DNA of 59,953 nucleotides from Candidatus Colenecus caballi (GTDB taxonomy: Bacteria > Bacteroidota > Bacteroidia > Bacteroidales > Bacteroidaceae): contig JAGHSY010000054.1 in assembly GCA_018065615.1 (NCBI GenBank), forward strand, positions 1 through 59,953, given 5' to 3'. A program made the translations under genes and the position numbers. Shown in pieces: positions 1 through 59,415 of this stretch. Every line of letters begins with the position of its first letter. Position 1 is the stretch's first letter. The notes under the pieces are model-generated. The model had not been told where the DNA came from. It saw nothing but the letters and a program-made list of their open reading frames with translations, and ran no database searches.

Positions 1-759
1 CACAATTCCGGTATCTTCAATTGTGTGGTGTTCGTCAACGTTCAAATCACCCTTCACCACGACCTTCAGGTCCATGCCGCCGTGACGGCCAATCTGCTCA
101 AGCATGTGGTCAAAGAAGCCCAGACCGGTGCTGATCTCACACTGTCCGCTGCCGTCCAGGTTCAGTTCGACCAGGATGTCGGTCTCTTTTGTGGCGCGGT
201 GTGCGCTGGCACGCCTTTCGCCGCCAAAGATGAATTCGGCCACCTTCCACCAGTCGCGTGATGCGAAGGCGCATGTGTCCTTCAAGTCCGATGCAAGAGC
301 GTCAGCACTGTCCTGCAGCAGTATGGCGCGGCAGCCCAGGTTGCGGGCCAACTCCACGTCCGTGGCGCGGTCACCTATGACAAAACTGCCTGCCAGGTCG
401 TATTCATCGGACTCAAGGTAGCGGGTGAACATGCCGGTGCGGGGCTTGCGGGTGGGGGCGTTATCGGCCGGGAAACTGCGGTCAATTAGTATGTCGCTGA
501 ATGTGATGCCTTCACCTTTAAGGGTGTCAAGAATGAAGTTGTGCGTGGGCCAGAAGTCCTTTTCGGGGTATGACGGGGTGCCAAGGCCGTCCTGGTTGCT
601 GGCCATGACCAGTTCGAAATCCGTACGCTGGGCAAGGAATGACAGGCTTTTTATGACTCCCGGAACGAACTGCAGTTTCTCAAAGCTGTCAAGCTGTTCG
701 TCTGACGGTTCCACCACAAGCGTACCGTCGCGGTCAATGAAAAGGACACGTTTCTTCAT
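1..759 (-). CDS. hisB: Bifunctional histidinol-phosphatase / imidazoleglycerol-phosphate dehydratase (partial)
   Basis: Two-domain HisB catalysing imidazoleglycerol-phosphate dehydration and histidinol-phosphate dephosphorylation. The visible 253 residues start [15 protein letters not shown], an HAD nucleophile motif. An imidazoleglycerol-phosphate dehydratase domain follows and includes [12 protein letters not shown] and the metal-binding EHHTIED. The C-terminal third runs off the left edge of the window. The ATG at 759 lies one base after the hisC stop, so the gene is translated as the fourth cistron of the his operon. The family assignment is certain; only the 3' end is unseen. Confidence 0.97.
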
Positions 760-760
760 A

Positions 761-1795
761 TCACATTCTTTTAAGACATTCTATAAGTTCATCGTCCTCG
801 GCGCGGGTGCCTATGGTCACGCGCAGAGTGTTTCCGCAAAGGGCAATGCGGCTGCGGTTGCGGACAATTATCCCGTTGTCAACCAGATAGTTGTATGTAG
901 CCGATGCATCCTTGACGCGGGCCAGGAAGAAATTGGCGTCGCTGGGATAGACCTTTGTGCAGCAGTCAAGTGCGGCAAAATCCTTCATGAGGCGTGCGCG
1001 CTCTTCAAGCAGGGTGCAGACCCATACCTGGACGCGGTCGTACTGCTTGACCTCTTCAAGAGCCTTCTGCTGCGTAAGCTGGTTGACGTTGTACGGATAT
1101 TTTACCTTGTTCATGGTCTGTATTATTTCCTCCGATGCAAAGGCCATGCCCAGACGTATTCCGGCCATGCCCCATGCCTTTGAGAAGGTCTGCAGCACCA
1201 CGAGGTTGGGACGCGCGTCAAGCTGCTCAAGGAATGACGGCACGCCGGCAAAGTCAATGTAGGCTTCGTCAACAATGGTGATTCCGTCAAAACTGTCAAG
1301 AACCTTTTCAATGACAGCGCGGTCCAGATTGTTGCCGGACGGGTTGTTCGGAGAACAGAAGAACACCAGCTTGGTGTTACTGTCAATGGCGGCCAGCAGC
1401 TTGTCCGCATCGGGCTGGAAATTCTCATCCATCAGCACGCGGCGGTATTCCACTCCGTTAATGTCAGCGCACACGCCGTACATGCCGTACGTGGGCTCTA
1501 TGGCCACTGCGTTGTCCTGGCCGGGGCGGCAGAACATGCGCAGCATCAGGTCTATGGCCTCATCGCTGCCGTTGCCGAAGAACATCTGGCCGGGACGCAC
1601 GCCCTTGATGCGTGCCACGCGCTCCTTCAAATCACGCTGCAGCGGGTCTGGGTAGCGGTTGTACGGCTGGTTGTAGGGATTCTCATTGGCGTCAAGGAAC
1701 ACCTTGGCGTCCTTTCCCTGATATTCGTCGCGGGCCGAAGTGTACGGCTTCAGCGCGGCTATGTTGGGACGTAACAGTTCGTTCAGAGGTCTCAT
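761..1795 (-). CDS. hisC: Histidinol-phosphate aminotransferase
   Basis: PLP-dependent class I/II aminotransferase converting imidazole-acetol phosphate to histidinol phosphate, 344 residues (normal length). Visible signatures are NPYNRYPDP near the N-terminus, [23 protein letters not shown], the IVDEAYIDF aspartate loop and the PLP-lysine region [14 protein letters not shown]. Its ATG overlaps the hisD stop by four bases (ATGA), indicating translational coupling. Confidence 0.97.
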
Positions 1796-3069
1796 GATTT
1801 CAAACGTATGGATACTGCATTCTTGTGGGCGTCAAGGGTCTCGGCTGCGGCCATGGTCTCAATGACGGGACCAAGTGCCTGCAGACCCTTCTCGGACAGT
1901 TCCTGGAAGGTTATCTTGCGCATGAAACTGTCAATGTTCACACCTGAATAGGCCTTGGCGTAGCCGCTTGTGGGCAGGGTGTGGTTGGTGCCTGAAGCGT
2001 AGTCGCCCGCACTTTCTGGAGAATAGGGACCCAGGAACACTGATCCTGCGTTCACCACGCGTCCTGCCAGTTCCATATAGTCCGATGTCTGTATGATAAG
2101 GTGTTCAGGGGCATACCTGTTGGTCATCTCTATAATCTGGTCGTTGTTTTCAAGAAGGACCAGACGGCTGTGCTCAAGGGCCGATGCGGCAATGTCCTGA
2201 CGGGGCAGCAGGGCCAGCTGGCGTCCGACTTCGGACTCGACCCTGTCCATGAGGGACTGTGATGTGGTCAGCAGCAGAACCTGGCTGTCACGTCCGTGTT
2301 CGGCCTGTGAGAGAAGGTCTGCGGCCACGTATGCGGGGTTGGCGTTTTCATCGGCAATGACCTCGACCTCGGACGGTCCGGCGGGCATGTCAATGGCCAC
2401 GTCCTTGAGTGACACAATCTGCTTGGCTGCAGTTACGTACGGGTTGCCGGGGCCGAAAATCTTCGATACCTTGGGCACGCTTTCAGTGCCGTAAGCCATG
2501 GCTGCAATGGCCTGTGAGCCGCCCAGCTTGAAGAAACGGTTCACGCCTGCAACCTGTGCGGCGTACAGTATAGCCGGGTTGACGCGGCCGTCAGGACCCG
2601 GAGGCGTGCACAGGACAATCTCCTGACAGCCTGCGGTGCGGGCTGGTATGGCCAGCATGAGTACGGTCGAGAACAGCGGTGCTGTGCCGCCGGGAATATA
2701 CAGGCCTACAGATGTGATTGGCACGGCTTTCTGCCAGCATACAACGCCTGGAGCGGTTTCCACCTTACTTAATGATGGCAGCTGTGAGGCATGGAACTTG
2801 CGTATGTTTGCGGCAGCCCGGTCAATGGCTGACTTGAGTTCTGCCGGAACAAGGTCCGATGCGGCCGCAAGCTCTTCAGGGCTGACTGCAAGGCTGTCCA
2901 GCTGAACTCTGTCAAACTGAAGTTCATAGTCGCGCAGTGCCTTGTCGCCACCTGCGCGTACGGTGTCCAGCACTGTCTGCACGCGCTCATACAGTCCTGC
3001 AACGCTCAGAGCCGGTCTGGCAAGCAGCCCGTCCCACTGTGAGCGGTCCGGATAAATGACTTTCCTCAT
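1792..3069 (-). CDS. hisD: Histidinol dehydrogenase
   Basis: NAD-dependent four-electron oxidation of histidinol to histidine, the last step of the pathway. 425 residues, typical length. Diagnostic blocks include [43 protein letters not shown] and the zinc/catalytic region [10 protein letters not shown], followed by APEHLI and [10 protein letters not shown]. It overlaps hisG by four bases upstream and hisC by four bases downstream. Confidence 0.98.
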
Positions 3070-3917
3070 AATATCATCTTTTCAATGGGCAGGACAAGGA
3101 TGCCTTCTGCTCCAAGTGACTTAAGTTTACCAATTATTTCCCAGAAACGCTTCTCGTCAAGGACGGTATGCACAGAACTCCAGCCGCTCTGTGCAAGCGG
3201 CATGACTGTGGGACTCTTTATGCCGGGCAGAACACCGGTAACATCGGACAGACGGTCATTGGGCACGTTCATCATGATGTATTTCTTGCCCTGTGCGGCC
3301 TTGACGGCATCAAAGCGGAACAGCAGTTCTTCAAGTACGGCCTTCTTTTCATCATCCATCTTGGGGTTGCCAATCAGTAGGGCTTCGGACTGCATTACGA
3401 CCTCGACTTCACGCAGGTTGTTGCTGACCAGGGTGGAACCGGAACTGACAATGTCAAAAATGGCATCAGCAAGTCCGATGCCGGGAGCAATCTCGACAGA
3501 ACCGGTTATGACGTGGGTTTCGGCCTTGATTCCGTTTTTCTTGAGGAATGAATTCAGAATACCGGGATATGATGTGGCAATCTTCTTGCCGTTGAACCAT
3601 TCAAGTCCGGGGTAGTCAATGGCTTTTGGAATGGCAAGCGACAGACGGCAGCGGCTGAATCCCAGACGCTTTATGACATCGGCCTTTTCAGCGCGTTCAA
3701 CGAATTCGTTCTCTCCTACAATGCCCACATCGGCCACACCGCCGGCTACGGACTGGGGTATGTCGTCGTCGCGGAGGAAAAGGACTTCGACCGGGAAGTT
3801 TCCGGACTGTACCAGAAGTGTTCTCTTTGATACTCCAAGGCTGATGCCTGATTCCTGAAGGAGCTCCATTGTCTCATCATAGAGACGCCCCTTTGACTGT
3901 ACTGCTATTCTCAACAT
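3066..3917 (-). CDS. hisG: ATP phosphoribosyltransferase, long form
   Basis: First and committed step of histidine synthesis (ATP + PRPP). The 283-residue length and the C-terminal segment after about residue 205 indicate the long HisG form with an ACT-like regulatory domain, so histidine feedback without HisZ is expected. N-terminal MLRIAVQSKGRLY, VADVGIVGENEF and the PRPP-type region GLADAIFDIVSSGSTL are visible. The start at 3917 follows the attenuator terminator at 3943-3971 by about 25 bases. Confidence 0.97.
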   Translation of the reverse strand: MLRIAVQSKGRLYDETMELLQESGISLGVSKRTLLVQSGNFPVEVLFLRDDDIPQSVAGGVADVGIVGENEFVERAEKADVIKRLGFSRCRLSLAIPKAIDYPGLEWFNGKKIATSYPGILNSFLKKNGIKAETHVITGSVEIAPGIGLADAIFDIVSSGSTLVSNNLREVEVVMQSEALLIGNPKMDDEKKAVLEELLFRFDAVKAAQGKKYIMMNVPNDRLSDVTGVLPGIKSPTVMPLAQSGWSSVHTVLDEKRFWEIIGKLKSLGAEGILVLPIEKMIL

Positions 3918-4931: not shown

Positions 4932-6402
4932 CCAGCGCACTTCATCATCAAAGGCTCTGCTTTTTGATGAAAAGCTGAATCTGGTCAGTCACAGAATAAT
5001 ACCACACCGCATATTCCACCCTAAGGATGACTGGGCCGAGGCCGATGCGGAAGAGATATACCGCAACACCATAGAGGCCATAAGGCAGCTTGACCTGCCT
5101 GTCACTGCGGACAACACGTTCTCTTTGTCAATTGTAAACCAGCGTGAGACATTCGTAATCTGGGACAGGACGACCGGAAAACCGGTCTATCATGCCGTGA
5201 TGTGGCAGTGCCGCCGTGGCGCCGCATTCTGTCAGAGCCTTGTCGAACAGGGGCTGGAGACGGCGCTTCGTGAGCGAACAGGACTTGTTCCCGATCCGTA
5301 TTTTTCAGCCAGCGGAGTGAAATGGGTGCTGGACAACATTGAAAGTGTCCGTGAACGTGCTGAAAGGGGAGACCTTCTGTTCGGAACCATAGACACCTGG
5401 CTGCTTTGGAAGCTGACAGGCGGCAAGGTCCATGCAACTGACTATTCCAACGCATCACGCACACTGCTCTTCAACATAAGGGATCTGGAGTGGGATTCTG
5501 AAATGCTCAAACTCTTTACCGTGCCGGCATGCATGATGCCCGAAGCCCGTCCATCGGACTCCATATTCGGAGAGACCGATATTGAAGGCATCCTGCCTGA
5601 AAAGGTGAAGATTGCGGGCGTGCTTGGCAATTCACACGGTGCGCTGGTAGGTCAGCTCTGTCTTGATCCGGGAATGGGAAAGACAACGTATGGAACCGGT
5701 TCTTCCGTCATGTTCAACATAGGCGAAGAACCCATGATCGCCCCGAACGGGATGGTCTGTTCTGTGGGCTATTCGCTCTTTGACCGTACCTGTTACGTAC
5801 TTGAAGGACACGTCCATTCGTCCGGCGCAGTTCTGGACTGGCTGACTGACAATCTGCGTCTGGTCGGTTCCAGTGAGGATACGCAGCAGCTGGCAATGAG
5901 TGTTCCGAACAACGGCGGCGTGTATTTCGTGCCGGCTTTCTCCGGTCTGGGGTCGCCCTGGTGGGTGCCTGAGGCCAAGGCTATGATAACGGGCCTGACC
6001 ATGTCATCGACCCGCGCCCATGTGGTGCGTGCCGCGCTTGAATCAATTGCATATCAGGTGGCCGACGTTGTTGAACTGGTTACACGTGACCTGAAATCAT
6101 CGCTGCGTGAACTTGCCATTGACGGAGAGTCTGCAAAGAATGACTTCCTCATGCAGTTCCAGGCTGACATTCTTGGCTTCCCGGTAAAGCGCATGGGGCT
6201 TGAAGAGGCATCGGGACTTGGTTCCGCCATTCTGAACTGCTGCGCCTGCGGCATATTGACTTCCATTGACCAGGTCAGGGAAATACGCCGGATCAGTGAG
6301 ATCTGCATGCCTGAAATGAAGGCCGATGAACGCGTCCGTAACCGTCAGGGATGGCTGCAGAGCGTGCATACTGTGATGCTTGCGGCAAAGAAGAATTCTT
6401 AA
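4909..6402 (+). CDS. Glycerol-kinase-like FGGY carbohydrate kinase with altered catalytic site
   Basis: 497 residues aligning by eye over full length with glycerol kinase: [21 protein letters not shown], the WQCRR block, [22 protein letters not shown], and [13 protein letters not shown]. Three normally conserved positions differ: the ATP-loop IDQGT reads IDQRT (Arg10), the segment holding the catalytic aspartate (GDQ in E. coli GlpK, Asp245) reads GNSH (Asn241), and DGG reads DGE. It may be a paralogue with changed substrate or weak activity, so a plain glpK name is withheld. It overlaps the lytic transglycosylase start-side and converges with smpB (4-bp overlap). Confidence 0.8.
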
Positions 6403-7851: not shown

Positions 7852-9111
7852 TCAGAATCTGTAGCAGACGCAGGCGTTGAGCCTGTTGGCATAGCCCATG
7901 TCCGCCCCGCCATCGGAATATATCCATTTGCGGCCGTTAAGGTATTCTACGCCCAGAAAGCAGGTGGGTGAGAAATAGTAGAACAGATTTGCCGCAATGT
8001 AGTCTGAATTCTTGAACCTGTCAGCTGTGAGCAGACCCTTGTTGTCAAGGTGGCAAAGCCCGAATACGACAGAACTCCTGAGCGTCTTTGACCACTTGTA
8101 GCTGGCTGACGCATAGCCGCCGGCAGCAGGCAGCGGAGCAAGAGTCGGATAGCCCTGACTGTCAAAGCCGTTCTCCATTCCCAGGCTCAGGCCCAGGCCG
8201 GCAAGGTCCTGTATGTAGTATGATACGCCCTTGCCGTAAATTCCCTGCGCGGAAAGTGTCAGCTTGTCTGACGGGCTGAAGTTGCCGCTGAGCGAGAAAC
8301 CGTAGCCTGACGCATATTTGGTGATTCCGTCCGATGCTGTACTGAATCCGCTCTTTGATGTCCAGTAGCTTACCTGACGCAGCAGAAGTCCCGCCTGGAC
8401 GTGGCCTCTGTCACCGCGGTATTTCAGGTGGACGGCCAGATCCGGGAAACTGTTGTAGTCCGATGATACATTGTATTCCTGAAAGGAATCGCCTATGGTA
8501 TGAGGTGCTTCCAGAGCCGCGGCGGCTGTCCATCGGCCCATAGGAAACGTGTAGCCTATCAGATTGTGGACCATGGCTATCTGAGTATTCGGGCCTTGCA
8601 GGTCCACTGTCATGGGACCGGCTTCAAGGTCCATGAAGAAGGAGTAGGTCTTTCCTATTGTGAATCTGTCAACTGAGACGTACGCTTTGCTGAGCAAGAT
8701 GTAGTCGGTGCCATCAATTTCGGCGCCCTGCAGCTGCAGGTATGCCGTGACCGTGTGTCTGCCTTTTGTGGCACGCGCCTTCACGTAAACATTGGATCCT
8801 GTGGCTGTGTAGCCGAAATGGTCGGTTTTGTCAACGGGAATGGCAATGGTGCCGGGGCTGAACGAGTATCCGTCCATGGCACCGTCAAAGTCATAGAATG
8901 TATTGAGATGGACCATGCCGCCTATGCCCAACGAAAAGCGCTTTTCATTGTCTGTGATCATGAAACGCGGGTCTGAGTCGTCTCTGTGGGCTTTCTGGAA
9001 ATAGCCCAGTTGCGGTTCGTATCTGTCCGGGTCAACCGCGGTTGTGTCAACGCGCTGGGCGAAAGCCAGTGCCGGCAGCAGCAATGCCGTTATGGTCAGC
9101 AGCCTCTTCAT
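7852..9111 (-). CDS. DcaP-like outer-membrane porin
   Basis: 419 residues with a signal peptide (MKRLLTITALLLPALAFAQ) followed by a beta-barrel pattern. DcaP-like features are GIGGMVHLNTFYDFDG, YTATGSNVYVKARATKG, TIGKTYSFFMDLEAGP, PNTQIAMVHNLIGY, and an aromatic C-terminus ending in YRF. The expected role is outer-membrane diffusion of small, possibly anionic, solutes. It lies three bases downstream of the choloylglycine-hydrolase-like gene and is surely co-transcribed with it, which suggests import or export of that enzyme's substrate or product. Confidence 0.75.
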   Translation of the reverse strand: MKRLLTITALLLPALAFAQRVDTTAVDPDRYEPQLGYFQKAHRDDSDPRFMITDNEKRFSLGIGGMVHLNTFYDFDGAMDGYSFSPGTIAIPVDKTDHFGYTATGSNVYVKARATKGRHTVTAYLQLQGAEIDGTDYILLSKAYVSVDRFTIGKTYSFFMDLEAGPMTVDLQGPNTQIAMVHNLIGYTFPMGRWTAAAALEAPHTIGDSFQEYNVSSDYNSFPDLAVHLKYRGDRGHVQAGLLLRQVSYWTSKSGFSTASDGITKYASGYGFSLSGNFSPSDKLTLSAQGIYGKGVSYYIQDLAGLGLSLGMENGFDSQGYPTLAPLPAAGGYASASYKWSKTLRSSVVFGLCHLDNKGLLTADRFKNSDYIAANLFYYFSPTCFLGVEYLNGRKWIYSDGGADMGYANRLNACVCYRF

Positions 9112-9114
9112 AGT

Positions 9115-10245: not shown

Positions 10246-10302
10246 GTCGTAATTATTGTAACATTCAACAAATCATTATATGATTATAGTTTTCCGGCAA
10301 AA

Positions 10303-22795: not shown

Positions 22796-22982
22796 CGGAA
22801 ACCCGGCGGAAGACATCCGCATGACCGGTCCGATGTTCCGGCGCATTGTTTCCGGACGGCTTACCATTTCCATTTTCGCCAAACCGGTACACATAGATAG
22901 CCGTCATGTACCTTCCAAAGGGTGTTGTAGGCGTGGTGACTTTGCCAGATCCGCTTTCGTCGGCGCAGTTTCCGCCATTTTC

Positions 22983-45395: not shown

Positions 45396-47096
45396 ATGAG
45401 GAGAATCCTTCCTGTCCTGCTGGCGCTTGTGCTGCTGTCCTCATGCAGCCAGCGTCGTGGAGTGGTGACCGTCAAGGTCATTGCCACATCGGACGTTCAT
45501 GGCCGTTTCTTTGACAAAGACTGTCTGGACGGCAATGAAAGGCCCGGGTCTCTGGCTAAATTCTCCACATATATCAGGCAAGTCAGGAAGGACTTCAGAA
45601 ATGTCGTATATGTTGACTGCGGTGACATTCTCCAGGGCTCGGTTGAGACTTTTCAGGATATGACCTCTGAATTCTACAAACCGAGTCTGGCTGCCAGCAT
45701 TTACAACTGGCTTGGGTGTGATGCTGCGGCATTCGGCAACCATGACATTTCCGTAGGTGTAAGCAGTTATGAACGTTTTTTCAGGTCTGTGGCTTTTCCT
45801 GTCATTGGCTCCAATGTATATTTTGACGATTACGGTGATTATCTGCCGGCCTGTACGGTGGTTGAAAGGCATGGAGTCAGGATAGGCCTGATAGGTCTGA
45901 CAACTCAGGTTGTGAACTGGTCCGTACCGTCAGACATAATTTCTGACCTGCGTGTCCATGATATGATAGAGTCGGCTTCATATCTGACTTCAGTTCTCAA
46001 GGATGAGACCGATGTCATCATTGCTGTCGTCCATTCAGGCTATGATGGCGGACGTATTGATGTGGAGAACCGCGTCAGGGAACTTGCCATGAGCGTGCCG
46101 GATATTGATGCGGTAATCTACGGACATGATCATCTGGCCCGATGTGAGAAACTGGTGAACGGATCCGATTCTGTCCTTGTCATCAATCCGGGGGCTGGAG
46201 CGGTGAATGCGGCCGATGTCACTTTGACTGTCGATTTCCGGGACCGGAATAATCCTGCGGTCAGCGTATCGGGCTCAATTGCCGGTCTGACGTCATTGCC
46301 TGCCGATCCTGAATTCATCAGTACCTTCTCAGACCGTTACGCCGATGTCATGGCGTATTCCGATTCGATTATCGGGAAGGCTACAGTCCCGTTGGAGAGC
46401 GGCTGCGCCCTTTGGAGACCGGCATCGGCCATTGAATACATCCATTCCATCCAGATGAGGTTCAGCGGCGCCCAGGTGTCACTGACGGCTCCGGTTGCGC
46501 TGAAGGGAATCATAAGGACTGATACAATGTCAGTCAGGGATGTCTTCAGCCTGTATCCGTTTGACAACAATATGGTGTCTGTCATGATGAAGGGAAGTGA
46601 AATTCGCAGAGTGCTTGAACATTCCGTGTCCAAGTTCTACAATACTGTCGGCAACGGAGCTGGACCACTGCTCAAGATGAAACCGGACGGACGGCCGCAG
46701 TGTGACATGAGCCGTTTCATAACAGCCTGCGGAATTGACTATACCGTCAATGTGACAAAGCCTGAAGGCAAACGTGTGGATGTGGTTTCCATGAGTGACG
46801 GCACTCCGTTCAGCGATGACGCAATGTACAGGACTACAATCAATTCCTTCCTGTTTTCAGGAACTGAGTCTCCTTTACGTGAGGCTCTTGGAGTTGGTCT
46901 GAAGGATTTTGCTGCACGCCAGAACCTGTCATCTCCGACAGATCTGAAATACTATATTATCACCGCTTTTGCCCTGAAGAATGAGGAGGGGCGGGAAGTG
47001 AGAATACCCCGGTACGCAAACTGGAAATTGGTTCCTGAAAATGTGACGGACGGTTTCCTTGCAGTTGATACAGTGAATTTCAAGTTTAAATTGTGA
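45396..47096 (+). CDS. 5'-nucleotidase-family metallophosphatase lipoprotein (UshA-like)
   Basis: 566 residues with lipobox LVLLSSC (Cys17). N-terminal calcineurin-like dimetal site: ATSDVHGRF, VDCGDILQGS, FGNHDIS, VVHSGYDG, and IYGHDHLARC. The C-terminal nucleotidase domain (SGAQVSLTAPVALKG, FPFDN-like YPFDNNMV) follows. Periplasmic or outer-membrane nucleotide scavenging is the expected role. It overlaps the SPOR-gene frame. Confidence 0.92.
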   Translation: MRRILPVLLALVLLSSCSQRRGVVTVKVIATSDVHGRFFDKDCLDGNERPGSLAKFSTYIRQVRKDFRNVVYVDCGDILQGSVETFQDMTSEFYKPSLAASIYNWLGCDAAAFGNHDISVGVSSYERFFRSVAFPVIGSNVYFDDYGDYLPACTVVERHGVRIGLIGLTTQVVNWSVPSDIISDLRVHDMIESASYLTSVLKDETDVIIAVVHSGYDGGRIDVENRVRELAMSVPDIDAVIYGHDHLARCEKLVNGSDSVLVINPGAGAVNAADVTLTVDFRDRNNPAVSVSGSIAGLTSLPADPEFISTFSDRYADVMAYSDSIIGKATVPLESGCALWRPASAIEYIHSIQMRFSGAQVSLTAPVALKGIIRTDTMSVRDVFSLYPFDNNMVSVMMKGSEIRRVLEHSVSKFYNTVGNGAGPLLKMKPDGRPQCDMSRFITACGIDYTVNVTKPEGKRVDVVSMSDGTPFSDDAMYRTTINSFLFSGTESPLREALGVGLKDFAARQNLSSPTDLKYYIITAFALKNEEGREVRIPRYANWKLVPENVTDGFLAVDTVNFKFKL

Positions 47097-47570: not shown

Positions 47571-47993
47571 TTGGGACGGATTCTTGCAATTGATTTTGGC
47601 ACAAAACGTACCGGAATAGCGGTGACTGATGTGCTTCGCATCGTGCCCGGCGGACTGACTACTGTCGCCACGCATGAACTCATGACCTTTCTGGCCGGTT
47701 ATTTCTCCAGAGAACCTGTCGATATTGTGGTCATCGGACTTCCTACGAACATGAACGGTCAGGAATCTGCCAGCATGAAACAGATACGCCCGTTTGTTGA
47801 AAAGTTCAGGAAAGCATATCCGGACAAGCAGGTGGTCATGTTTGACGAACGTTTCACTTCAGTGCTTGCACAGCGCGCCATTCTTGATTCCGGAATTGGG
47901 AAAATGGCACGCCGCAACAAGGCTCTGGTCGATGAGGTCAGCGCCACGATCATCCTGCAGTCTTACATGGATTCAATACAGTACAAAATATGA
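47571..47993 (+). CDS. ruvX: Putative Holliday junction resolvase (YqgF/RuvX)
   Basis: 140 residues starting with TTG at 47571 (LGRILAIDFGTKRTGIAVTD). No ATG lies in the correct place, and the frame upstream belongs to another gene. RNase H-fold motifs: AIDFGTKRTGIA, IVVIGLPTNMNG and VDEVSATIILQSYM. Also implicated in 16S rRNA 5' processing in other bacteria. Its TGA overlaps the def ATG. Confidence 0.92.
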   Translation: MGRILAIDFGTKRTGIAVTDVLRIVPGGLTTVATHELMTFLAGYFSREPVDIVVIGLPTNMNGQESASMKQIRPFVEKFRKAYPDKQVVMFDERFTSVLAQRAILDSGIGKMARRNKALVDEVSATIILQSYMDSIQYKI

Positions 47994-48544
47994 TTTTACC
48001 GATTTACACTTATGGACAGCCTGTCCTGAAAAAGGAGACAGAAGAGATAGACCGGAATTATGAAAACCTTCCGCGTCTCATAGAAGATATGTTCGAAACT
48101 CTCAGAAAGTCAGAAGGCGTTGGCCTTGCGGCCCCTCAGGTCGGCCTTCCAATCCGTCTGATGGTTGTTGACCTTGACATCATGTCCGATGACGAACCTG
48201 AATTCAAGGGATATTTCAGAACGTATATCAATCCGTACATTGAGGAGACCGATGGAGAAATGGTACCTTATGAGGAGGGCTGTCTCAGTTTTCCGGGCAT
48301 TCATGAGAAGGTCAGCCGTCCGGCTCGTGTCCGTGTGAGCTGGCAGGATGAGAATTTTCAGGAACATGACGAATGGTTTGAAGGCTTCCCGGCACGTGTC
48401 ATGCAGCATGAGATAGACCATCTGGACGGCAAGTGCTTCATTGACCGCATGTCTCCGCTGCGCCGTCAGATGAACAGGAAGAACCTGAGCAACATAGCTG
48501 CAGGCAAGTTTCACTGCGACTACAAGGTCAAAATAAAGAAGTGA
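47990..48544 (+). CDS. def: Peptide deformylase
   Basis: 184 residues with the three metal motifs: GVGLAAPQVG, EEGCLSFPG and QHEIDHLDG. Removes N-formyl from nascent proteins. Four-base overlap with ruvX, one base before the TPR gene. Confidence 0.97.
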   Translation: MILPIYTYGQPVLKKETEEIDRNYENLPRLIEDMFETLRKSEGVGLAAPQVGLPIRLMVVDLDIMSDDEPEFKGYFRTYINPYIEETDGEMVPYEEGCLSFPGIHEKVSRPARVRVSWQDENFQEHDEWFEGFPARVMQHEIDHLDGKCFIDRMSPLRRQMNRKNLSNIAAGKFHCDYKVKIKK

Positions 48545-48545: not shown

Positions 48546-50558
48546 ATGACTGTAAGGCGGATAGTGCGTTCTGTCATGGCAGCCCTGCTGCTGTGCGCGC
48601 CTCTGTCTGCCCAGGTCAACACAGACCGCATGATGTCAGTGGGCCGTACGGCTTTGTATTTTGATAATTATGTGCTGTCAATCCAGTACTTCAATCAGGT
48701 TATCAGCGCCAAACCGTACATGTATGAGCCTTTCTTCTATCGTGCTGTCGCCAAACTGTCGCTTGAAGATTACCGTGGAGCGGAAACGGACTGCACCAGT
48801 TCTCTGGAACGGAATCCATTCGTGGTCAACAGTTATCAGGTCCGGGGTCTGGCCAAGGTGTATCAGGAACGGTATGATGATGCGGCCGCAGATTTCATGA
48901 GCGGACTTCATCTGGACCCTGAAAACGTGTCGCTCAGGCATAATCTCATTCTGTGCCAGGCACGTGGCGGACACATGGATGAGGCATTCCGGTCGGTTGA
49001 TACGCTCATGTCAATCGCCCCCAAGTACACTCCGGCCATGGCAATGCGTTCCGATATGCTGTGGGACCGTGGTGACACAGCCGGAGCCGTTGAATGGATA
49101 GACCGTGCCATAGTTCTTGACAGGTATGATGCTGACCTGCTGCACCATCGCGGCATTCTGTTTGCACGCATGGAGGAATTCGCCAGGGCTGAACCGGACC
49201 TTGACAAGGCCATATATCTGGATCCTGCAAATGCAGGCCTTTATATTAACCGTGCCATGGTCCGATACTGTCAGGACAATCTGAACGGTGCGCTTGATGA
49301 CTATGACATGGCCATTGTCATTGACCCGTCCAATGTGACAGCCCATTACAACCGCGGTAACCTGCGTGGCCAGATTGGTGATGACAACCGGGCCATCCAG
49401 GACTTTGACATGGTCATTGAGGCCGAGCCCGACAATATGATGGCCATATTCAACAGGGGAATACTGCGTTATAATACTGGAGACCTGCGCGGTGCGGAGA
49501 ATGACATATCGGCGGTGCTTGCGCAGTACCCGCAGTTTGTCATGGGATACCAGTTCCGTTCTCAGGTTCGTGAAGGTCTGGGTGACCGACGCGGGGCTGA
49601 ACAGGACGCTCTTGTTGTCCTCAAGGAACAGAACCGCCGTTTCAACAACCCTGATGCCGACAAGGCTGATGAGTCCGATGACGGCAAGACACGCGGCAGT
49701 TCGGACCGTAACATGCGCAATTATCGGAAAATCATTGTAGATGACAATCTTGAGAACTCGACCGGCTTTTCAAGCGAATACCGTGGCAAGGTCCAGAACA
49801 GGAATGTTGAAGTCCAGTATCTGGAACTGTACAGACTGACATATTTCAGGACTTCTGATCCGCAGTCCGGTCCGGCTCCCTATATCAGCCGCCTTGAAAG
49901 CATAAACACATCAGGTGTGCTCATGTCCGACATTGTTGTGGATAAGGCTGACACACCGCTTGACGTAAACCGTATCAATATGCTTTTCTCTGATATTGAA
50001 CGCTGTACGTCGCTCCTGGCCGATGATCCTTTCAATGCGGACGTGCTGGTGGCGCGCGCTCTTGACTTCTGTCTTCTTCAGGATATACCGTCATCGGAAT
50101 CGGACCTCATGCAGGCAGTGGAAAGATCGCCTGAGTCGTGGACCGCATGGTTCTGCCTGGCCCAGCTTCATGCCAGGGAACTGGAAATGAAGAAAGCTGA
50201 ACGTGATCTTGACCTGCAGAACGGTCAGAAGCAGAACCGTGACAATATGGCCGATCCCGGTTATCAGAAGGTGCTCAGGGAACTGGATGAAGTAATCGGA
50301 CTGGTTCCGGACTGCCAGTACGCATATTATAACCGTGGAACAGTTCATGCCCTGGTCAATGACATGCACGCCGCACTTGTGGACTTTGACCGTGCAATAG
50401 AACTTGACGCCACTCTGGCTGAAGCCTGGTATAACCGCGGCCTGGTCCTTGTAATGCTGAACCGTATGGATGACGCGTTCCGTGACCTGAGCAAGGCCGG
50501 TGAACTTGGCATTTATTCCGCATATAATATAATAAAAAGATTTTCTAAGGCCGATTGA
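48546..50558 (+). CDS. Secreted tetratricopeptide-repeat protein
   Basis: 670 residues with a signal peptide ending LSAQ. At least ten TPR-like helical pairs are visible (FFYRAVAKLSLEDYRGAETD, LYINRAMVRYCQDNLNGALD, AHYNRGNLRGQIGDDNRAIQ, YYNRGTVHALVNDMHAALVD). A non-TPR insert lies at about residues 365-470 (KTRGSSDRNMRNYRKIIVDD). A periplasmic scaffold or assembly role is inferred; no partner is known. It follows def by one base. Confidence 0.85.
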   Translation: MTVRRIVRSVMAALLLCAPLSAQVNTDRMMSVGRTALYFDNYVLSIQYFNQVISAKPYMYEPFFYRAVAKLSLEDYRGAETDCTSSLERNPFVVNSYQVRGLAKVYQERYDDAAADFMSGLHLDPENVSLRHNLILCQARGGHMDEAFRSVDTLMSIAPKYTPAMAMRSDMLWDRGDTAGAVEWIDRAIVLDRYDADLLHHRGILFARMEEFARAEPDLDKAIYLDPANAGLYINRAMVRYCQDNLNGALDDYDMAIVIDPSNVTAHYNRGNLRGQIGDDNRAIQDFDMVIEAEPDNMMAIFNRGILRYNTGDLRGAENDISAVLAQYPQFVMGYQFRSQVREGLGDRRGAEQDALVVLKEQNRRFNNPDADKADESDDGKTRGSSDRNMRNYRKIIVDDNLENSTGFSSEYRGKVQNRNVEVQYLELYRLTYFRTSDPQSGPAPYISRLESINTSGVLMSDIVVDKADTPLDVNRINMLFSDIERCTSLLADDPFNADVLVARALDFCLLQDIPSSESDLMQAVERSPESWTAWFCLAQLHARELEMKKAERDLDLQNGQKQNRDNMADPGYQKVLRELDEVIGLVPDCQYAYYNRGTVHALVNDMHAALVDFDRAIELDATLAEAWYNRGLVLVMLNRMDDAFRDLSKAGELGIYSAYNIIKRFSKAD

Positions 50559-52639: not shown

Positions 52640-53212
52640 ATGAAGAAAAACGATTTGAGTGGACAGTATCAGGTTAACGAGCAGATTCGTGCCAGAGAAG
52701 TCCGTATTGTCGGAGATGGAATAGAGCCCAAGGTGGTATCACTGCGTGAGGCACTCCAGACAGCTGATGACATGGAACTGGATCTGGTAATGATTTCACC
52801 GAATGCAGTTCCTCCGGTATGCAGAATAGTTGATTTCTCAAAGTTCCTTTACCAGCTCAAGAAAAAGCAGAAGGAAGCCAAGGCAAAGCAGGTCAAGATT
52901 GACGTCAAGGAAATCCGTTTCGGTCCCCAGACAGATGATCACGACTACAACTTCAAGCTGAAGCACGCCATCGAATTCCTGAAAGGTGGTGACAAGGTTA
53001 AGGCGTATGTCTTTTTCCGTGGCCGTTCAATCCTTTTCAAGGAGCAGGGTGAAAACCTTCTGGCACGTTTTGCCAAGGACCTTGAAGAATACGGCAAGCA
53101 GGAGCAGGCTCCCATACTTGAAGGCAAGCGTATGACAGTCTTCTTCTCACCCAAGAAAGGTGCCGTAACCAGAAAGTCCGATGCTCCCAAGCAGGAGGAA
53201 ACAGAAGAATAA
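52640..53212 (+). CDS. infC: Translation initiation factor IF-3
   Basis: 190 residues beginning with ATG, unlike the AUU start of E. coli infC. N-terminal [16 protein letters not shown], linker [20 protein letters not shown], and C-terminal [29 protein letters not shown] are diagnostic. Proofreads initiator tRNA on the 30S subunit. The acidic tail (QEETEE) is an unremarkable extension. Confidence 0.98.
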
Positions 53213-53977: not shown

Positions 53978-53983
53978 TATGAC

Positions 53984-54128: not shown

Positions 54129-54168
54129 CTCGGAGTTCTCATCACATCACCGGTGCGGTTTTTTTTCC

Positions 54169-54236: not shown

Positions 54237-56687
54237 ATGAGAAAATCGCTACTCCTTCTTGCAGGCTTTCTGGCCTGTCTGCCATCATTTGCAATCAATG
54301 AATTCTATTATTGGGCCGGCAGGTTTGACAATCTGAATCTGAATGAAAGTTTTCCAGTATTGTCTGAAACCGGTGACACATTGAAAGATGCATCAGCCGT
54401 TGTTGTAGAGGATCCGTCGGATCCGTCAAACAAGGTCCTGCATGTGGTTACAGGCAGCACTCCGGGCTTTGTCCTCATGGACACCCCAGAAGGACTGACA
54501 CCTTCAAACCTGGTAAACAAGTACACCTGTGTTTCCATGAATGTCATGCGCGCAGGAACAAATGAAGCGACTGCCAGCAGCAAGTTCAAACTGTTCTTTA
54601 CTACGTTCCTTTCATATCAGTCGACAGCTGCATTCGCTCTTGAGGCCGATACATGGACTGGCAAGTGTTTTTCACCGCTGACCGCAAGAAGTTCAATGCC
54701 GAGAAAGAAGAACTTCATGTTTGGTCTGGACGTTGCAAATGCTGACTACTATATTGATGATATCTGCTTCATGTCGTCACCTGACGCTTTTGAAAAGGAA
54801 AAGGCTGCAATTGAGAAGGCCAGACAAGATTCAATCAGGGCTATTGAAAATGCCAAGCGTGATTCAATTCTCAGAGCTGAACTGGTCATACGTGATTCCA
54901 TTATGCAGGAACAGTCCGATGCATACGACAGGATGATTTCTGAAATAAACAGTAACATGGACCGCGAACTTCACTATGACTTTGAGGACTTTGAGGTGGG
55001 TACCACATTCCCGGTGTATTCCAAGTCAGGAAGCACACAGATAGCTGGAGCGACTGCAACGGTTGAACTTGACGGAAACAACAAGGTACTCCATGTGTGT
55101 ACACCTGAAGAGGGCGGATATGTCCAGCTTGACATAATTCACAGTTATTCTCCTTCAAATTTCCTGAACAAGTATGTAGAGATGTGCATTCAGATCAGAC
55201 GCAGTGCAGGAAATACCGCAACGGCTTCAACAAATTTTGAAGTTGTGTTGGGCAGCTATAATGCAGTCAATGCCAGTTTCCAGTCACAGGCAGGAAACTG
55301 GACCACCCAGACGTTCAAGTTCTCCAATTCCGGAACATCTACGCAGCTGGGCAGAAAGAAAGTCATGAAGATAGGTCTTGTTGCTGCAGGTGCTGACTAT
55401 TACATTGACAACATATACTATCCGCAAAAGGAGTATGATGCCACTTTCAGTGACCCTACCAAGACCGCACGTTACTGGGCGGACCAGATTGGCAAGAACT
55501 TTGGAACCTGTCTGAACCAGTGGACAGCAAGCAGTCAGGGACAGATAGCCGGCAAGAACTTCAACATGGTTGTCTGTGAAAATGAAATGAAGTTCGATGC
55601 AACCGAACCTCAGAGAAACCAGTTCAGCTATAATGGCGGTCAGGCTGTTGTCAATGTGGCAAAACAGTATAACATGAAGGTGCGCGGCCATACCCTGACA
55701 TGGCATGGTCAGAACCCGAACTGGGTATCGAACTTCAACGGATCCAGAAAAGACTGGGAGCAGATTCTCAAGAACCATATATATAATGTGGTGGGGCACT
55801 GGAAAGGACAGATTGCCGAATGGGATGTCGTGAACGAATGTCTTGAAGATAACAACGGCTGTCAGGAAGGCGGCGGCTATCAGACACGCTCATCTTCTGT
55901 CTGGTACAGAGGTTTTGGTGATGACTCATACATTGATTCTGCATTTGTATGGGCACATCAGGCCGATCCCGATGCAAAGCTTTACATCAATGACTACAAC
56001 ATAGGTGCATGGGACGGCGGTCCTTCATGGGAGAACGGCAAGACTCATGCCATGTACAATCTGGCCAAGAGGCTTAAGGACGCCGGTATTCCGATAGACG
56101 GTGTGGGCATGCAGACACACATCAATCTGAACAGCGTGGATCCGGCTCAGATTGAAAAGACGGTAAAGAAATTCCGTGCAATTGGTCTGAACTGCATAAT
56201 TACGGAAATGGACCTGCCCGGCGGCCAGGTTTCAGGCAGCGGTGACAATGCAAAGCTTGTCAGGGGAATATCAGAAAAGGAACTTCAGATTCAGGCAGAA
56301 AAGTATGCGGCAATTACCGATATAATGATCCGTTATGACAACTGCCCGTCCATGGTGGTGTGGGGTGTTACTGATGACAGGTCATGGCTGGACTGCAGCG
56401 AAGGTACAAAGCCGCTGCTGTTCTTTGCAGACAACACTCCTCATCCGGCATACATTGAGGTCCGCAGGACATATCAGAGATGGGCCGAGGTCATTACAGA
56501 AGTTGATGACATCTTTGCCGATGATTCCGATGATGACATGATATGGTACGATTCTGCTGAAAAGACGGTTGACGTATATAATCTGTTGGGCCAGAAAGTG
56601 GCTGCCGGCATTACTTCTGACCAGATTATGGAACTGCCTGACGGTTTCTACATCATTGGCGGAAAGAAGGTGCTGATCAGAGAATGA
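54237..56687 (+). CDS. GH10 endo-1,4-beta-xylanase with tandem N-terminal carbohydrate-binding-like domains
   Basis: 816 residues from the ATG at 54237; the frame upstream to 54024 crosses the RNA and promoter and is rejected. Signal peptide MRKSLLLLAGFLACLPSFA. Two similar beta-sandwich domains (each ending ADYYIDDICF / ADYYIDNIYY) flank a charged helical linker with repeated RDSI/KRDSIL heptads. The GH10 barrel has CENEMKFDATEPQ, HTLTWHGQNPNW, acid/base Glu534 in WDVVNE and nucleophile Glu657 in CIITEMD. The C-terminal VDVYNLLGQKVAAGI and LPDGFYIIGGKKVLI resemble a T9SS type A sorting domain, implying surface delivery. Confidence 0.93.
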   Translation: MRKSLLLLAGFLACLPSFAINEFYYWAGRFDNLNLNESFPVLSETGDTLKDASAVVVEDPSDPSNKVLHVVTGSTPGFVLMDTPEGLTPSNLVNKYTCVSMNVMRAGTNEATASSKFKLFFTTFLSYQSTAAFALEADTWTGKCFSPLTARSSMPRKKNFMFGLDVANADYYIDDICFMSSPDAFEKEKAAIEKARQDSIRAIENAKRDSILRAELVIRDSIMQEQSDAYDRMISEINSNMDRELHYDFEDFEVGTTFPVYSKSGSTQIAGATATVELDGNNKVLHVCTPEEGGYVQLDIIHSYSPSNFLNKYVEMCIQIRRSAGNTATASTNFEVVLGSYNAVNASFQSQAGNWTTQTFKFSNSGTSTQLGRKKVMKIGLVAAGADYYIDNIYYPQKEYDATFSDPTKTARYWADQIGKNFGTCLNQWTASSQGQIAGKNFNMVVCENEMKFDATEPQRNQFSYNGGQAVVNVAKQYNMKVRGHTLTWHGQNPNWVSNFNGSRKDWEQILKNHIYNVVGHWKGQIAEWDVVNECLEDNNGCQEGGGYQTRSSSVWYRGFGDDSYIDSAFVWAHQADPDAKLYINDYNIGAWDGGPSWENGKTHAMYNLAKRLKDAGIPIDGVGMQTHINLNSVDPAQIEKTVKKFRAIGLNCIITEMDLPGGQVSGSGDNAKLVRGISEKELQIQAEKYAAITDIMIRYDNCPSMVVWGVTDDRSWLDCSEGTKPLLFFADNTPHPAYIEVRRTYQRWAEVITEVDDIFADDSDDDMIWYDSAEKTVDVYNLLGQKVAAGITSDQIMELPDGFYIIGGKKVLIRE

Positions 56688-56734: not shown

Positions 56735-57769
56735 TCATTTGCGTATGCCGGCCTTGCTGAGCGCATTCTGATAACGGCGTGCGTTGGCGTTATGCTGTGA
56801 CAGGGTGGTGGCAAAATTGTGGTAGCCGGAGAAATCCTCTTTTGCGCACATATACAGGTAGTTGTGTCTTGCGTAGTTCAATACGGCATCAATGGAACGT
56901 ATGTTGACAAAACGGATAGGTCCGGGAGGAAGTCCCTGGTGTATGTATGTGTTGTATGGCGAATCGACCTCAAGATGTTTCTTGAGCACACGTTTCGGCC
57001 TTTCCCCGCCAAGAGCGTAGATTACGGTCGGGTCTGCCTGGAGCGGGATTCTCTTTTTGAGACGGTTCATGTAGAGACCGGCAACTTTTGGAAGTTCATC
57101 GGACTTTGACGTCTCCTCTTCAATGATTGATGCAAGGGTGGTGACTTCAAGTTCGCTGAGTCCGATGGATCTGGCTTTGGCCTTGCGTTCATCTGACCAG
57201 AAACGGTCGCGTTCCTTCAGAAGACGTGCCAGCAGCGCATCGGGACTGACATTCCAGTACACTTCATACGTGTTTGGTATTATGGCGCAGAAGACTGTGG
57301 CCGGCGTGTAACCTGTGGAATCAAGCCAGATGGGGTCATTCAGACGGCTGGCCACTGACGCTGAGTCAAGCATGAGCTGAAGGGCAATGTCATGTGCAAG
57401 ACCCGCAACGGTGCGGGTGCTGCGGATGGTCAGCCTGACAGGGGTCTGTGAACCTGATACCAGCATGTCCGTAATCTGACGGGCATCAGCGCCCTTGCGT
57501 ATGGTGTAGCAGCCGCTGCGTATGCGCCGTCCGTATTCCCGGTGGTTCATCCAGCGCTCCAGCCCTTTGGTGCGCGCGTCTGGATTCCTGTCAAGAATGG
57601 TCTGTAAAACAGTCTGTTGTGAATAATCCGGAAGAATGAAAATGTTGAAGTCATCCAAGTCCGATACAGGGCAGGACAGTGAGCGGTAAATGCTGAAAGC
57701 GTAAGCCGCAGCACCTACAAGGATGGCTGATATGACGGAAAAGGTTATTTTTGTTGCTTTTGAAGACAT
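56735..57769 (-). CDS. mltG: Endolytic murein transglycosylase
   Basis: 344 residues with an N-terminal membrane anchor (ITFSVISAILVGAAAYAFSIY). YceG/MltG signatures: AIIPNTYEVYWN, TLASIIEEETSK with the catalytic Glu, QADPTVIYALG, SPYNTYIHQGLPPGPI and MCAKEDFSGYHNFA. Cleaves nascent glycan strands, setting chain termination. Monocistronic, divergent from the GH51 gene. Confidence 0.95.
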   Translation of the reverse strand: MSSKATKITFSVISAILVGAAAYAFSIYRSLSCPVSDLDDFNIFILPDYSQQTVLQTILDRNPDARTKGLERWMNHREYGRRIRSGCYTIRKGADARQITDMLVSGSQTPVRLTIRSTRTVAGLAHDIALQLMLDSASVASRLNDPIWLDSTGYTPATVFCAIIPNTYEVYWNVSPDALLARLLKERDRFWSDERKAKARSIGLSELEVTTLASIIEEETSKSDELPKVAGLYMNRLKKRIPLQADPTVIYALGGERPKRVLKKHLEVDSPYNTYIHQGLPPGPIRFVNIRSIDAVLNYARHNYLYMCAKEDFSGYHNFATTLSQHNANARRYQNALSKAGIRK

Positions 57770-57846
57770 AAGAAGTCTGATTTTTCAGCAAAGTAAGCGG
57801 TTTTTTTCTAACTTCGCATTCCAGTAACCAACAAACCTGATTATTA

Positions 57847-59415
57847 ATGAAAAAGGTACTTTTCCTGCTTTCTCTGACAGCAGCCCTGTCAGCAAGCGCA
57901 AAGAATGAAGTTAAGGTAACCGTGCACGCTGACCAGCCGGGTGCCACCATCAACAAGAATATCTACGGACAGTTCTCAGAACACCTGGGCACCTGTATTT
58001 ACGGTGGTCTGTGGGTAGGTCCTGAATCATCAATCCCCAACACTGACGGCTACCGTACAGACGTGCTGAACGCTTTAAAGGAACTTCAGGTCCCTGTAAT
58101 GCGCTGGCCGGGCGGCTGCTATGCCGATGAATATCACTGGAAAGACGGCATCGGACCCAAGGAAGACCGTCCTGTCATGGTCAACAACAACTGGGGCGGC
58201 GTTGTGGAGGACAACAGCTTTGGAACACATGAGTTCCTGAACCTGTGCGAACTTATTGGCTGTGAGCCTTACATTTCCCTGAATGTGGGCAGCGGCTCTG
58301 TCCGTGAGGCTGCAGAATGGATTGAATATATGAATGCAGCAGACGGTCCGATGGCCAAGATCCGCAAGCAGAACGGCCGTGAGGAACCCTGGCATGTCAA
58401 GTACATTGGCGTAGGCAATGAGGCCTGGGGTTGCGGAGGCAACATGCTGCCGGAGTATTATTCTGACATTTTCCGCCGCTATCAGACCTACTGCCGTGAT
58501 TTCAACGGCACCAGCCTTTTCAAGATAGCCAGCGGTGCATCGGACTACGACTATGAATGGACCGAGGTTCTTATGAAGAAGGTAGGTTCAATGATGAATG
58601 CCGTATCTCTCCATTATTATACCGTGTCAGGCTGGGTGGGCGCCAAGAAACCCGCTACAGGCTTCTCGGACGATGATTACTACTGGTGTCTGGGCAAGTG
58701 CCTTGGCATTGAACCGGTAATCCAGAAGCATCTGGCCATAATGTCAAAGTATGATCCTGAACATAAGATTCCATTGCTGGTTGACGAATGGGGTACTTGG
58801 TGGGAACCGGAGCCTGGCACACAGCTTTACCAGCAGAACACCATGCGTGACGCTCTGGTGGCTTCTCTGTCACTTGACGTGTTCCACAAGTACTGTGACC
58901 GCATTCAGATGACCAACATTGCCCAGGTAGCCAACGTGCTGCAGTCAATGATTCTGACAAAGGATGACAAGATGGTCCTGACCCCGACATACTGGCTGTA
59001 TGACATGTACAAGCCGCACATGGACGCAACATTCATCCCTGTAGATCTGGAAGGCTATCAGGTCAGGCTCACTCCGAACGAGCGCTATGCCGCCAATCCC
59101 GATGAGACCGCCACACGTCCTCTGCCTCTGTTCAGTTCAACCGCATCGAAGGACAAGAACGGCAAACTGCACATCTCAATGTCAAATGTAAAGCTTGATG
59201 AGGCTCAGACCGTTACCGTACAGCTGGACGGTTTCAAGGCAAAGAAGGTCACTGCAAATATCCTTACAAGTGACAAGGCTACAGACTACAACACGTTTGA
59301 AAATCCTGACAAGATCAGGCTTGCTGAATTCAAGGGCGCAAAGATTGACAAGAAGTCAGGTGCCATTACACTTGAAATTCCTGCAGCAAGTATTGTAACT
59401 CTTGAAGTGGAATAA
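57847..59415 (+). CDS. GH51 alpha-L-arabinofuranosidase
   Basis: 522 residues with a signal peptide ending LSASA. FSEHLGTCIYGGLWVG and MRWPGGCYADEYHWKDGIGP are the family hallmark; acid/base Glu192 is in GVGNEAWGCGG and nucleophile Glu314 in LVDEWGTWWE. The C-terminal beta-sandwich ends at LEVE. Removes arabinose side chains from arabinoxylan, complementing the GH10 and CE15 enzymes nearby. A degenerate -7 TAACTTCG lies about 35 bases before the ATG. Confidence 0.96.
   Translation: MKKVLFLLSLTAALSASAKNEVKVTVHADQPGATINKNIYGQFSEHLGTCIYGGLWVGPESSIPNTDGYRTDVLNALKELQVPVMRWPGGCYADEYHWKDGIGPKEDRPVMVNNNWGGVVEDNSFGTHEFLNLCELIGCEPYISLNVGSGSVREAAEWIEYMNAADGPMAKIRKQNGREEPWHVKYIGVGNEAWGCGGNMLPEYYSDIFRRYQTYCRDFNGTSLFKIASGASDYDYEWTEVLMKKVGSMMNAVSLHYYTVSGWVGAKKPATGFSDDDYYWCLGKCLGIEPVIQKHLAIMSKYDPEHKIPLLVDEWGTWWEPEPGTQLYQQNTMRDALVASLSLDVFHKYCDRIQMTNIAQVANVLQSMILTKDDKMVLTPTYWLYDMYKPHMDATFIPVDLEGYQVRLTPNERYAANPDETATRPLPLFSSTASKDKNGKLHISMSNVKLDEAQTVTVQLDGFKAKKVTANILTSDKATDYNTFENPDKIRLAEFKGAKIDKKSGAITLEIPAASIVTLEVE

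Follow-up and report, generated by a model that had tools for sequence, protein, structure and literature searches.

The window analysed here is the whole stretch of 59,953 nucleotides of contig JAGHSY010000054.1 from Candidatus Colenecus caballi (Bacteroidales, Bacteroidaceae), and the element in question is the octamer GTCCGATG, which is scattered over its genes in both orientations. The window holds 26 copies of GTCCGATG and 23 of CATCGGAC, 49 in all, where about 1.8 would be expected with equal base use. The initial annotation had read the word as a candidate genome-wide DNA signal, equally common in both orientations, used in several reading frames and expected about twice by chance; its counts and every coordinate it named agree with an exact-match search. 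GTCCGATG is the commonest 8-mer of the window; once its shifted copies are set aside, CATCGGCC (21 copies), a one-base variant of it, comes next. The draft genome from which the window comes (G000; 2,252,565 bp in 125 contigs, 90.84% complete) has 629 and 587 copies in the two orientations (1216 copies, 0.54 per kb), against 30 + 32 = 62 copies of the reversed word, which is the word read backwards and counted on both strands. A genome-wide signal is well supported at the DNA level, and the two orientations are about equally common. The excess of GTCCGATG is real, genus-wide and dialect-forming.

Null models were compared in a 404-kb sample made up of the window and 20 further stretches of G000 (L003-L022), with some counts on 424 kb. 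The 404 kb contain 221 copies against 21 predicted by an order-3 Markov model. For the 231 copies in 424 kb, Markov orders 2, 3, 4 and 5 predict 13, 22, 73 and 166, the rise at orders 4 and 5 being due to pieces of the word that these orders already include. Shuffling of synonymous codons within genes (60 shuffles, preserving the protein and per-gene codon usage but leaving codon pairs free) had been named at the outset as a way to refute the signal, and the excess survives it, with 208 coding copies in 404 kb against a mean of 14.25 (standard deviation 4.2, maximum 23). Genes were called with a custom script based on open reading frames (ORFs) and hexamers, not with a published gene finder. 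Several reading phases are used, as first noted: 80 copies against 4.6 in the shuffle as TCC-GAT, 74 against 3.5 as TCG-GAC, 42 against 3.2 as ATC-GGA and 9 against 2.6 as CCG-ATG; the two rare phases together account for 3 copies, where the shuffle gives 0.45. Across analyses the excess over expectation is 13-18x.

Shape, placement and turnover of the word

Single-base variants and flanks in the 404-kb sample give a motif of about (A)GNYCGATR, or in fuller form T..(A)GNYCGATR(C)(C). Position 2 takes every base, with GGCCGATG found 132 times against 27 expected, GACCGATG 77 against 23 and GCCCGATG 48 against 15. Position 3 tolerates T (58 against 14) and position 8 tolerates A (52 against 13), and position 1 is more weakly tolerant (T 69 against 28, A 32 against 15). 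The twelve one-off variants of the CGAT core (positions 4-7) sum to 163 against 215 expected and show no excess as a set. This tolerance at positions 2, 3 and 8 around a fixed core would resemble a graded protein-binding site. The flanks are as first noted, with A (0.53) or G (0.21) before the word and C (0.39) or A (0.29) after it; C or A is favoured at two positions after the word, and T at -4. A precedes the word more often than any other base in each common reading class (31 of 75, 28 of 47 and 51 of 83), which makes this a pattern of the DNA and not of one codon pair.

The excess acts at the DNA level and is strand-symmetric. The 424 kb have 132 copies on the plus and 99 on the minus strand of arbitrarily oriented contigs, with no over-dispersion of orientation between loci (p = 0.58). 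Neighbouring copies share their orientation in 86 of 200 pairs, and their spacing is Poisson-like, with a coefficient of variation (CV) of 1.09. The initial annotation had proposed a test of strand symmetry; with strands assigned by GC skew in these draft contigs, the G-rich strand carries 110 copies and the C-rich strand 121, and no replication polarity is seen. Within genes, 93 copies are sense and 123 antisense. Non-called DNA (53.7 kb of the 404-kb sample) has 11 copies against about 1 expected, part of them probably in missed genes. If the 404-kb sample is restricted to gaps of 20-400 bases, a single copy is left where 0.11 is expected; the GNYCGATR family has 4 there against 2.1, which does not surpass its reversed control (4 against 1.9). 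Gaps of 20-500 bases from four groups, each counted with its own words, add up to 48.6 kb and contain 7 copies against 1.4 (Poisson p = 0.0006), and 3 against 1.2 for the reversed words. A strict intergenic mask that removes any 50-codon open frame leaves just 3.4 kb, too little for use.

Individual word sites turn over. Alignment with relatives covers 305 word sites; the exact word persists at 30 of them, compared with 483 of 3216 for permuted control words, and a further 28 of the 305 read GGCCGATG; the ComEC region is aligned to many genomes, and its sites are therefore counted repeatedly in these figures. The GNYCGATR family is kept at 74 of the 305 sites and at 273 of 1345 same-shape control sites, so even the wider family gives no clear sign of extra conservation. 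Conservation in relatives, which had been suggested as a check on the signal, does not exceed that of the controls. The word has also altered proteins. Ser-Asp dipeptides stand at 1.22 of expectation in G000 and range from 0.90 to 1.08 in eight other sets. The exact word encodes 158 of the 610 Ser-Asp dipeptides in G000, where Ile-Gly shows no such rise (1.00). Amino acid change together with the loss of single sites is what molecular drive through DNA exchange predicts, and weak genome-wide selection in place of drive is also compatible with the turnover pattern.

Shorter contexts are biased as well. Word-bearing genomes are depleted in CGA/TCG and TTA/TAA/TAG relative to codon shuffling, and the depletion is weaker in word-poor species. 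CGA in G000 is at 0.51 and 0.56 of the codon shuffle in the two free phases, and at 0.62 of the order-1 expectation between genes; the two values are 0.61 and 1.03 in the word-poor set, and 0.84 and 1.15 in a pool of other Bacteroidales. TTA in G000 is at 0.43 in one phase. The gains in G000 are each mainly in one phase (TGA 1.78, TCA 1.59, TTG 1.58, CAA 1.41), and these trinucleotides are not raised between its genes (0.95-1.08). CCGAT is spared (1.78 of the codon shuffle), and GCGAT (0.26), ACGAT (0.37) and CGATC (0.20) are strongly reduced, CGATC being low in other Bacteroidales too (0.38). The process behind the word may also have caused the loss of CGA, for example through repair or conversion bias, or the loss may reflect more efficient weak selection in word-bearing lineages. 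Separately, CTAG is depleted to 0.11-0.23 of the codon shuffle in every same-genus set, and the pool of other Bacteroidales (L029-L102) falls in the same range.

Dialects in the genus and beyond

The same-genus set comprises 37 genomes, G000 among them. In the other 36, GTCCGATG ranges from 17 copies (G003) to 760 (G014), and the reversed-word controls from 37 to 82. The three top counts of GTCCGATG among 399 genomes of the family are those of G000 (1216), G014 (760) and G017 (487). A second word, GGCCGATG, is the only other one with whole-genome counts, made in G000 and 60 relatives. It is abundant in G036 (1166), G006 (1162), G002 (1147), G011 (1139), G000 (744) and G014 (624), and low in G003 (73), G035, G028, G032 and G001 (73-150 copies). 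In 24 genomes of other families it is low, mostly below the control or within about threefold above it. A clear exception is G054, from another family, with 156 copies against 12 reversed, which is possibly a separate use of the GGCCGATG word. G046, a genome of 4.4 Mb from another family, has zero GGCCGATG and 146 copies of the reversed word, a pattern that suggests avoidance of a site inside GGCCGATG, such as GGCC.

On a ComEC tree of 36 genomes, GGCCGATG is found throughout one large clade, with GGCCGATA added in one subclade, and the GTCCGATG dialect is found in G000 and partly in G014. A CGATGCC dialect (CCGATGCC/CGATGCCG) reaches 20-22x in G028 and 13-16x in G001, and none of the tested words exceeds about 5x in G003, G035 and G032. 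These ratios use a base-composition expectation and samples of 8-424 kb, many merely 8-40 kb. Masked bases counted as A had inflated the G001 ratios (CGATGCCG and CCGATGCC, 29-36x), and the values given for G001 and G028 were recomputed with masked bases left out. Ranking against codon shuffling puts the same word family at the head in G000, G014, G017, G018, G026, G016 and G011 and in a pool of seven named loci, and CGATGCC at the head in G028; the ranking of G007 (22 kb of coding DNA) is not headed by the family, and that of G001 is not readable because masked bases taken as A broke gene calling. The named loci nearest the window (RUG14391, RGIG9684, UBA1192, Red_deer_4_mag_217, Horse_feces26, RGIG8382 and RUG450) come from rumen or other herbivore gut assemblies, some of these sources being inferred from the names, and GGCCGATA is the top word in two of them. 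Judged by eye on the single-gene ComEC tree, the dialects appear to be passed down by lineage, keeping the CGAT core while the bases around it change.

Two wider signals were considered and dropped. The first was an order-wide CCGATGCC signal: an excess of CCGATGCC over its reversed control is common in 247 genomes, but in the codon-shuffled rankings of G431, G439, G511 and G611 no word is as dominant as in this genus. The clearest CGATGCC cases are G028 and L101. In 21.7 kb the latter, from the Bacteroidales assembly Lapin-011__bin66, contains 18 copies of CGATGCCG and 15 of TCGATGCC, perhaps an older or an independent form of the genus word. A replication-polarised word in the genus labelled g40 was suggested by the first matches listed, nearly all of which lie on one strand of long contigs; this polarity is put down to list order. 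In stretches chosen around the listed matches there are 10 copies against 3.4 expected in G273 (140 kb), 4 against 1.6 in G139 and 7 against 3.2 in G169, and the word is not among the enriched words in the 140 kb of G273 or in 60 kb each of G139 and G169.

Candidate explanations

The best explanation at present is a genome-wide, non-palindromic recognition word with GTCCGATG as its local form, acting as a 'self' signal of the uptake or recombination type. It is put forward tentatively, with confidence a little below even. A protein of this genus would read the word in double-stranded DNA or on either strand, and word-carrying DNA would be preferentially taken up or recombined during natural transformation, so that word-bearing alleles spread by molecular drive. 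Copies would build up on both strands within genes while single sites appear and vanish, and changes in the reader protein would carry each lineage towards a dialect of its own. We infer all three elements of this scheme, namely the reading by a protein, the uptake or recombination process, and drive over weak selection. The broader proposal, of a dialect-forming self-recognition word in an uncultured gut genus of Bacteroidota that arose independently and spreads by transformation or recombination without type IV pili, is possible but clearly short of even confidence.

So far as is known, established uptake words are confined to the Neisseriaceae and the Pasteurellaceae, two families that have type IV pili. 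Among the best matches listed from open-licence PMC papers, no description of an over-represented or uptake word in Bacteroidales was found. The uptake signal sequence (USS) of Pasteurellaceae is, like the word here, of 9-bp scale, within genes and on both strands, and it affects protein content, as GTCCGATG does. A bias of the USS to gene ends is reported in an excerpt from the literature; the word here has no such bias, no A/T tracts beside the core and no pilus motor over the cut-off in its genomes. The DNA uptake sequence (DUS) of Neisseriaceae, according to an excerpt of PMC3630211, likewise consists of hundreds to thousands of short non-palindromic copies on both strands. The same excerpt describes eight dialects with a conserved core that are congruent with phylogeny and absent from some genomes, and here too there is a dominant dialect in most species, with variable positions round the core and word-less relatives. 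The present genus differs in its phylum and in having no pilus motor over the cut-off, so that no ComP-type pilin route is expected and the word falls outside the definition of the DUS/USS class. The initial annotation had named uptake sequences, Chi and HIP1 as analogues; the lineage dialects much strengthen the first of these candidate analogies.

Of the competence genes, ComEC (PF03772) is found in 60 of the 61 genomes searched and, as the initial annotation had suggested checking, in all 37 of the genus (in G025 as two pieces). DprA (PF02481) is found in 40 of 41, including 25 of 25 same-genus genomes. The ComEC of G000 (L187:8988-10550, minus strand) has 520 amino acids (aa), and its only Pfam domains are DUF4131 and Competence; intact frames are 518-563 aa in the genus and about 650-770 aa in over half of the other families searched. 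The type IV pilus motor PF00437 is over its family cut-off in none of the 37 same-genus genomes and in 1 of 61 overall (drafts 62-100% complete; pilin families were not searched). Matches to it at E <= 0.001 occur in 42 of the 61, all but one below the cut-off, and weak sub-threshold matches are found in many of the 37. In Riemerella anatipestifer, of the same phylum, transformation requires ComEC, DprA, ComF and RecA and also four proteins of unknown function that lack homology to known transformation machinery (excerpt of PMC8459023), and Porphyromonas gingivalis, of the Bacteroidales, is described in part of a published source as naturally competent. With these two precedents a pilus-free route of transformation in the genus seems plausible. 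Among mobile elements, a TraM-type element (PF12508) is found in none of the 25 same-genus genomes, 1 of 41 overall and 0 of 14 control genomes, and a search with the phrog_2 terminase gave weak matches only, mostly to frames of about 300-350 aa.

Several findings weigh against an uptake or recombination word. ComEC and DprA are found across the order, even in genomes that lack the word, and therefore have no discriminating power, and with no pilus motor over the cut-off there is no known receptor for the word. The excess of DUS and USS is far above the 13-18x seen here, and uptake sequences of this class prefer intergenic DNA or gene ends, whereas GTCCGATG is denser in coding DNA (0.59 per kb) than between genes (0.20 per kb). 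An intergenic excess is present and rests on few sites. There is no bias to gene ends in G000 (Kolmogorov-Smirnov p 0.32 and 0.85), and the copies in the set labelled cladeA, which are unevenly placed along genes (p 0.03 and < 0.001), do not tend towards the ends. By fifths of G+C content at third codon positions (GC3), the excess is 11.5x in the lowest and 12-18x in the others, hence present in all codon-usage classes; with the lowest value barely reduced, depletion in acquired DNA is not shown, and by a second codon-usage measure the excess is not lower in atypical genes. The losses of CGA and TTA are not predicted by a simple uptake model, and G054, of another family, has an excess of GGCCGATG over its reversed control. 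Neisserial genomes have considerably more one-mismatch DUS than perfect copies (excerpt of PMC3630211), unlike the core one-off variants here, which are at or below expectation.

A Chi-like word is one of the rival readings. A helicase-nuclease of the RecBCD/AddAB type could read the word on a single strand and switch to recombination, with the dialects tracking the enzyme. The octamer scale, the density of 0.54 per kb and the fold excess resemble those of Chi, and a coding location is normal for it. Known Chi words are skewed towards one replication strand, however, and the word here has no polarity by skew (110 against 121 copies), by orientation between loci (p = 0.58) or by neighbours (86 of 200 alike). 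A Chi-like word is judged an unlikely explanation.

For HIP1 in cyanobacteria Elhai proposed maintenance through DNA methylation together with context-specific mismatch repair; similar upkeep of the present word is improbable. HIP1 is a very abundant octamer with the same CGAT core, as in GCGATCGC, and alternate words replace one another between relatives there as they do here (excerpt of PMC4390886). The depletion of CGA outside the word, which in G000 extends to DNA between genes, is a decay-like signature that would also fit. GTCCGATG differs in not being palindromic, that is, its own reverse complement. The C5-methylase PF00145 is present in 9 and Vsr in 7 of the 25 same-genus genomes searched, and neither was found in the word-rich G000, G014, G017, G011, G006, G010 and G002, which are incomplete drafts (N6 and N4 methylases were not searched). 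Upkeep by C5-methylation plus Vsr repair is accordingly not supported.

The copies could instead be sites where an abundant protein of the nucleoid or of chromosome organisation binds, each of them under weak selection. The scaled selection strength would be about 3, as estimated by taking the natural logarithm of the coding fold excess. The graded tolerance of single positions, the random spacing (CV 1.09) and the high turnover are all in keeping with such sites, but selection on dispensable sites should favour intergenic DNA and synonymous changes, and amino acid content has shifted too. This account is quite improbable. A word without function, left by context-dependent mutation or codon-context bias, is equally improbable: 4-mers in G000 do deviate from the codon shuffle (CGAG 0.34, GCGA 0.38, TCAA 1.56), and less so in word-poor relatives (CGAG 0.64, with GCGA and TCAA not among the listed extremes), but orders 3 and 4 predict 22 and 73 of 231 copies, codon shuffling predicts 14 of 208 coding copies, 8-9 positions matter, and amino acid content is changed.

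If the uptake or recombination word is the right reading, self-DNA words arise independently, and the genus points to a novel DNA reader; gene exchange among these gut bacteria would then be sorted by species. Even if the reader is a recombination or nucleoid protein, the 37 genomes with measured word use are a comparative set in which to look for covariation.

Sites in the window and other repeats

Two details of the window had been read differently before. The copy at 22828 was taken as non-coding, and it does lie within about 655 bases between listed ORFs of at least 100 aa; a stop-to-stop frame of at least 50 codons covers the site, so it is not used as proof of a non-coding copy. The stretch 8466-15039, around an A+T-rich ATPase, was noted as word-free, as expected of foreign DNA. 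When 49 sites are placed at random, 15.7% of the placements contain a gap this long, so the gap is not significant, and with a GC of 0.503 against 0.519 the stretch as a whole is hardly A+T-rich. A foreign origin argued from the missing word is not supported.

Table 1. Copies of the word in the window (all exact matches to GTCCGATG on the strand given), followed by RNA features of the window and a repeat array in other sampled contigs
Feature	Position	Strand	Remarks
GTCCGATG copy	286..293	+	
GTCCGATG copy	405..412	-	
GTCCGATG copy	2080..2087	+	
GTCCGATG copy	2854..2861	+	
GTCCGATG copy	3242..3249	-	
GTCCGATG copy	3473..3480	+	GACCGATA at this place in relative L131
GTCCGATG copy	5552..5559	-	
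GTCCGATG copy	8329..8336	+	
GTCCGATG copy	8458..8465	+	
GTCCGATG copy	15040..15047	-	
GTCCGATG copy	16821..16828	+	
GTCCGATG copy	16941..16948	-	
GTCCGATG copy	17781..17788	-	
GTCCGATG copy	17812..17819	+	
GTCCGATG copy	19013..19020	-	
GTCCGATG copy	19038..19045	+	
GTCCGATG copy	20432..20439	-	
GTCCGATG copy	20532..20539	+	
GTCCGATG copy	22828..22835	+	between listed ORFs, non-coding status unsure
GTCCGATG copy	23388..23395	-	
GTCCGATG copy	25183..25190	+	
GTCCGATG copy	26559..26566	+	
GTCCGATG copy	26793..26800	-	
GTCCGATG copy	28654..28661	+	
GTCCGATG copy	28939..28946	+	
GTCCGATG copy	30498..30505	+	
GTCCGATG copy	32302..32309	+	
GTCCGATG copy	32637..32644	-	
GTCCGATG copy	32784..32791	-	
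GTCCGATG copy	33950..33957	-	
GTCCGATG copy	35338..35345	+	
GTCCGATG copy	36302..36309	-	
GTCCGATG copy	36523..36530	-	
GTCCGATG copy	38673..38680	+	
GTCCGATG copy	39164..39171	-	
GTCCGATG copy	39816..39823	+	
GTCCGATG copy	41799..41806	-	
GTCCGATG copy, phosphohexomutase gene	44559..44566	-	kept in 6 of 7 aligned relatives
GTCCGATG copy	45487..45494	-	
GTCCGATG copy	47732..47739	-	
GTCCGATG copy	48184..48191	+	kept in 2 of 6 aligned relatives (L024, L028); L027 has GGCCGATG
GTCCGATG copy	49673..49680	+	
GTCCGATG copy	53176..53183	+	
GTCCGATG copy	54914..54921	+	
GTCCGATG copy	57097..57104	-	
GTCCGATG copy	57160..57167	+	
GTCCGATG copy	58149..58156	-	
GTCCGATG copy	58346..58353	+	Pro-Met frame according to the initial annotation
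GTCCGATG copy	58538..58545	-	
tRNA	35945-36016		
tRNA	36047-36133		
6S-like RNA	53981-54166		Rfam Bacteroidales-1
tRNA	59458-59530		
83-bp array	L020:1244-1549 and L020 13-142; L014 ~4261-4556; L019 ~587-965		

An 83-bp tandem array, each unit of which carries an inverted ACGTTAGGGA pair, is found in three of the sampled contigs. It is among the most extreme k-mer families of the 404-kb sample and is unrelated to the word.

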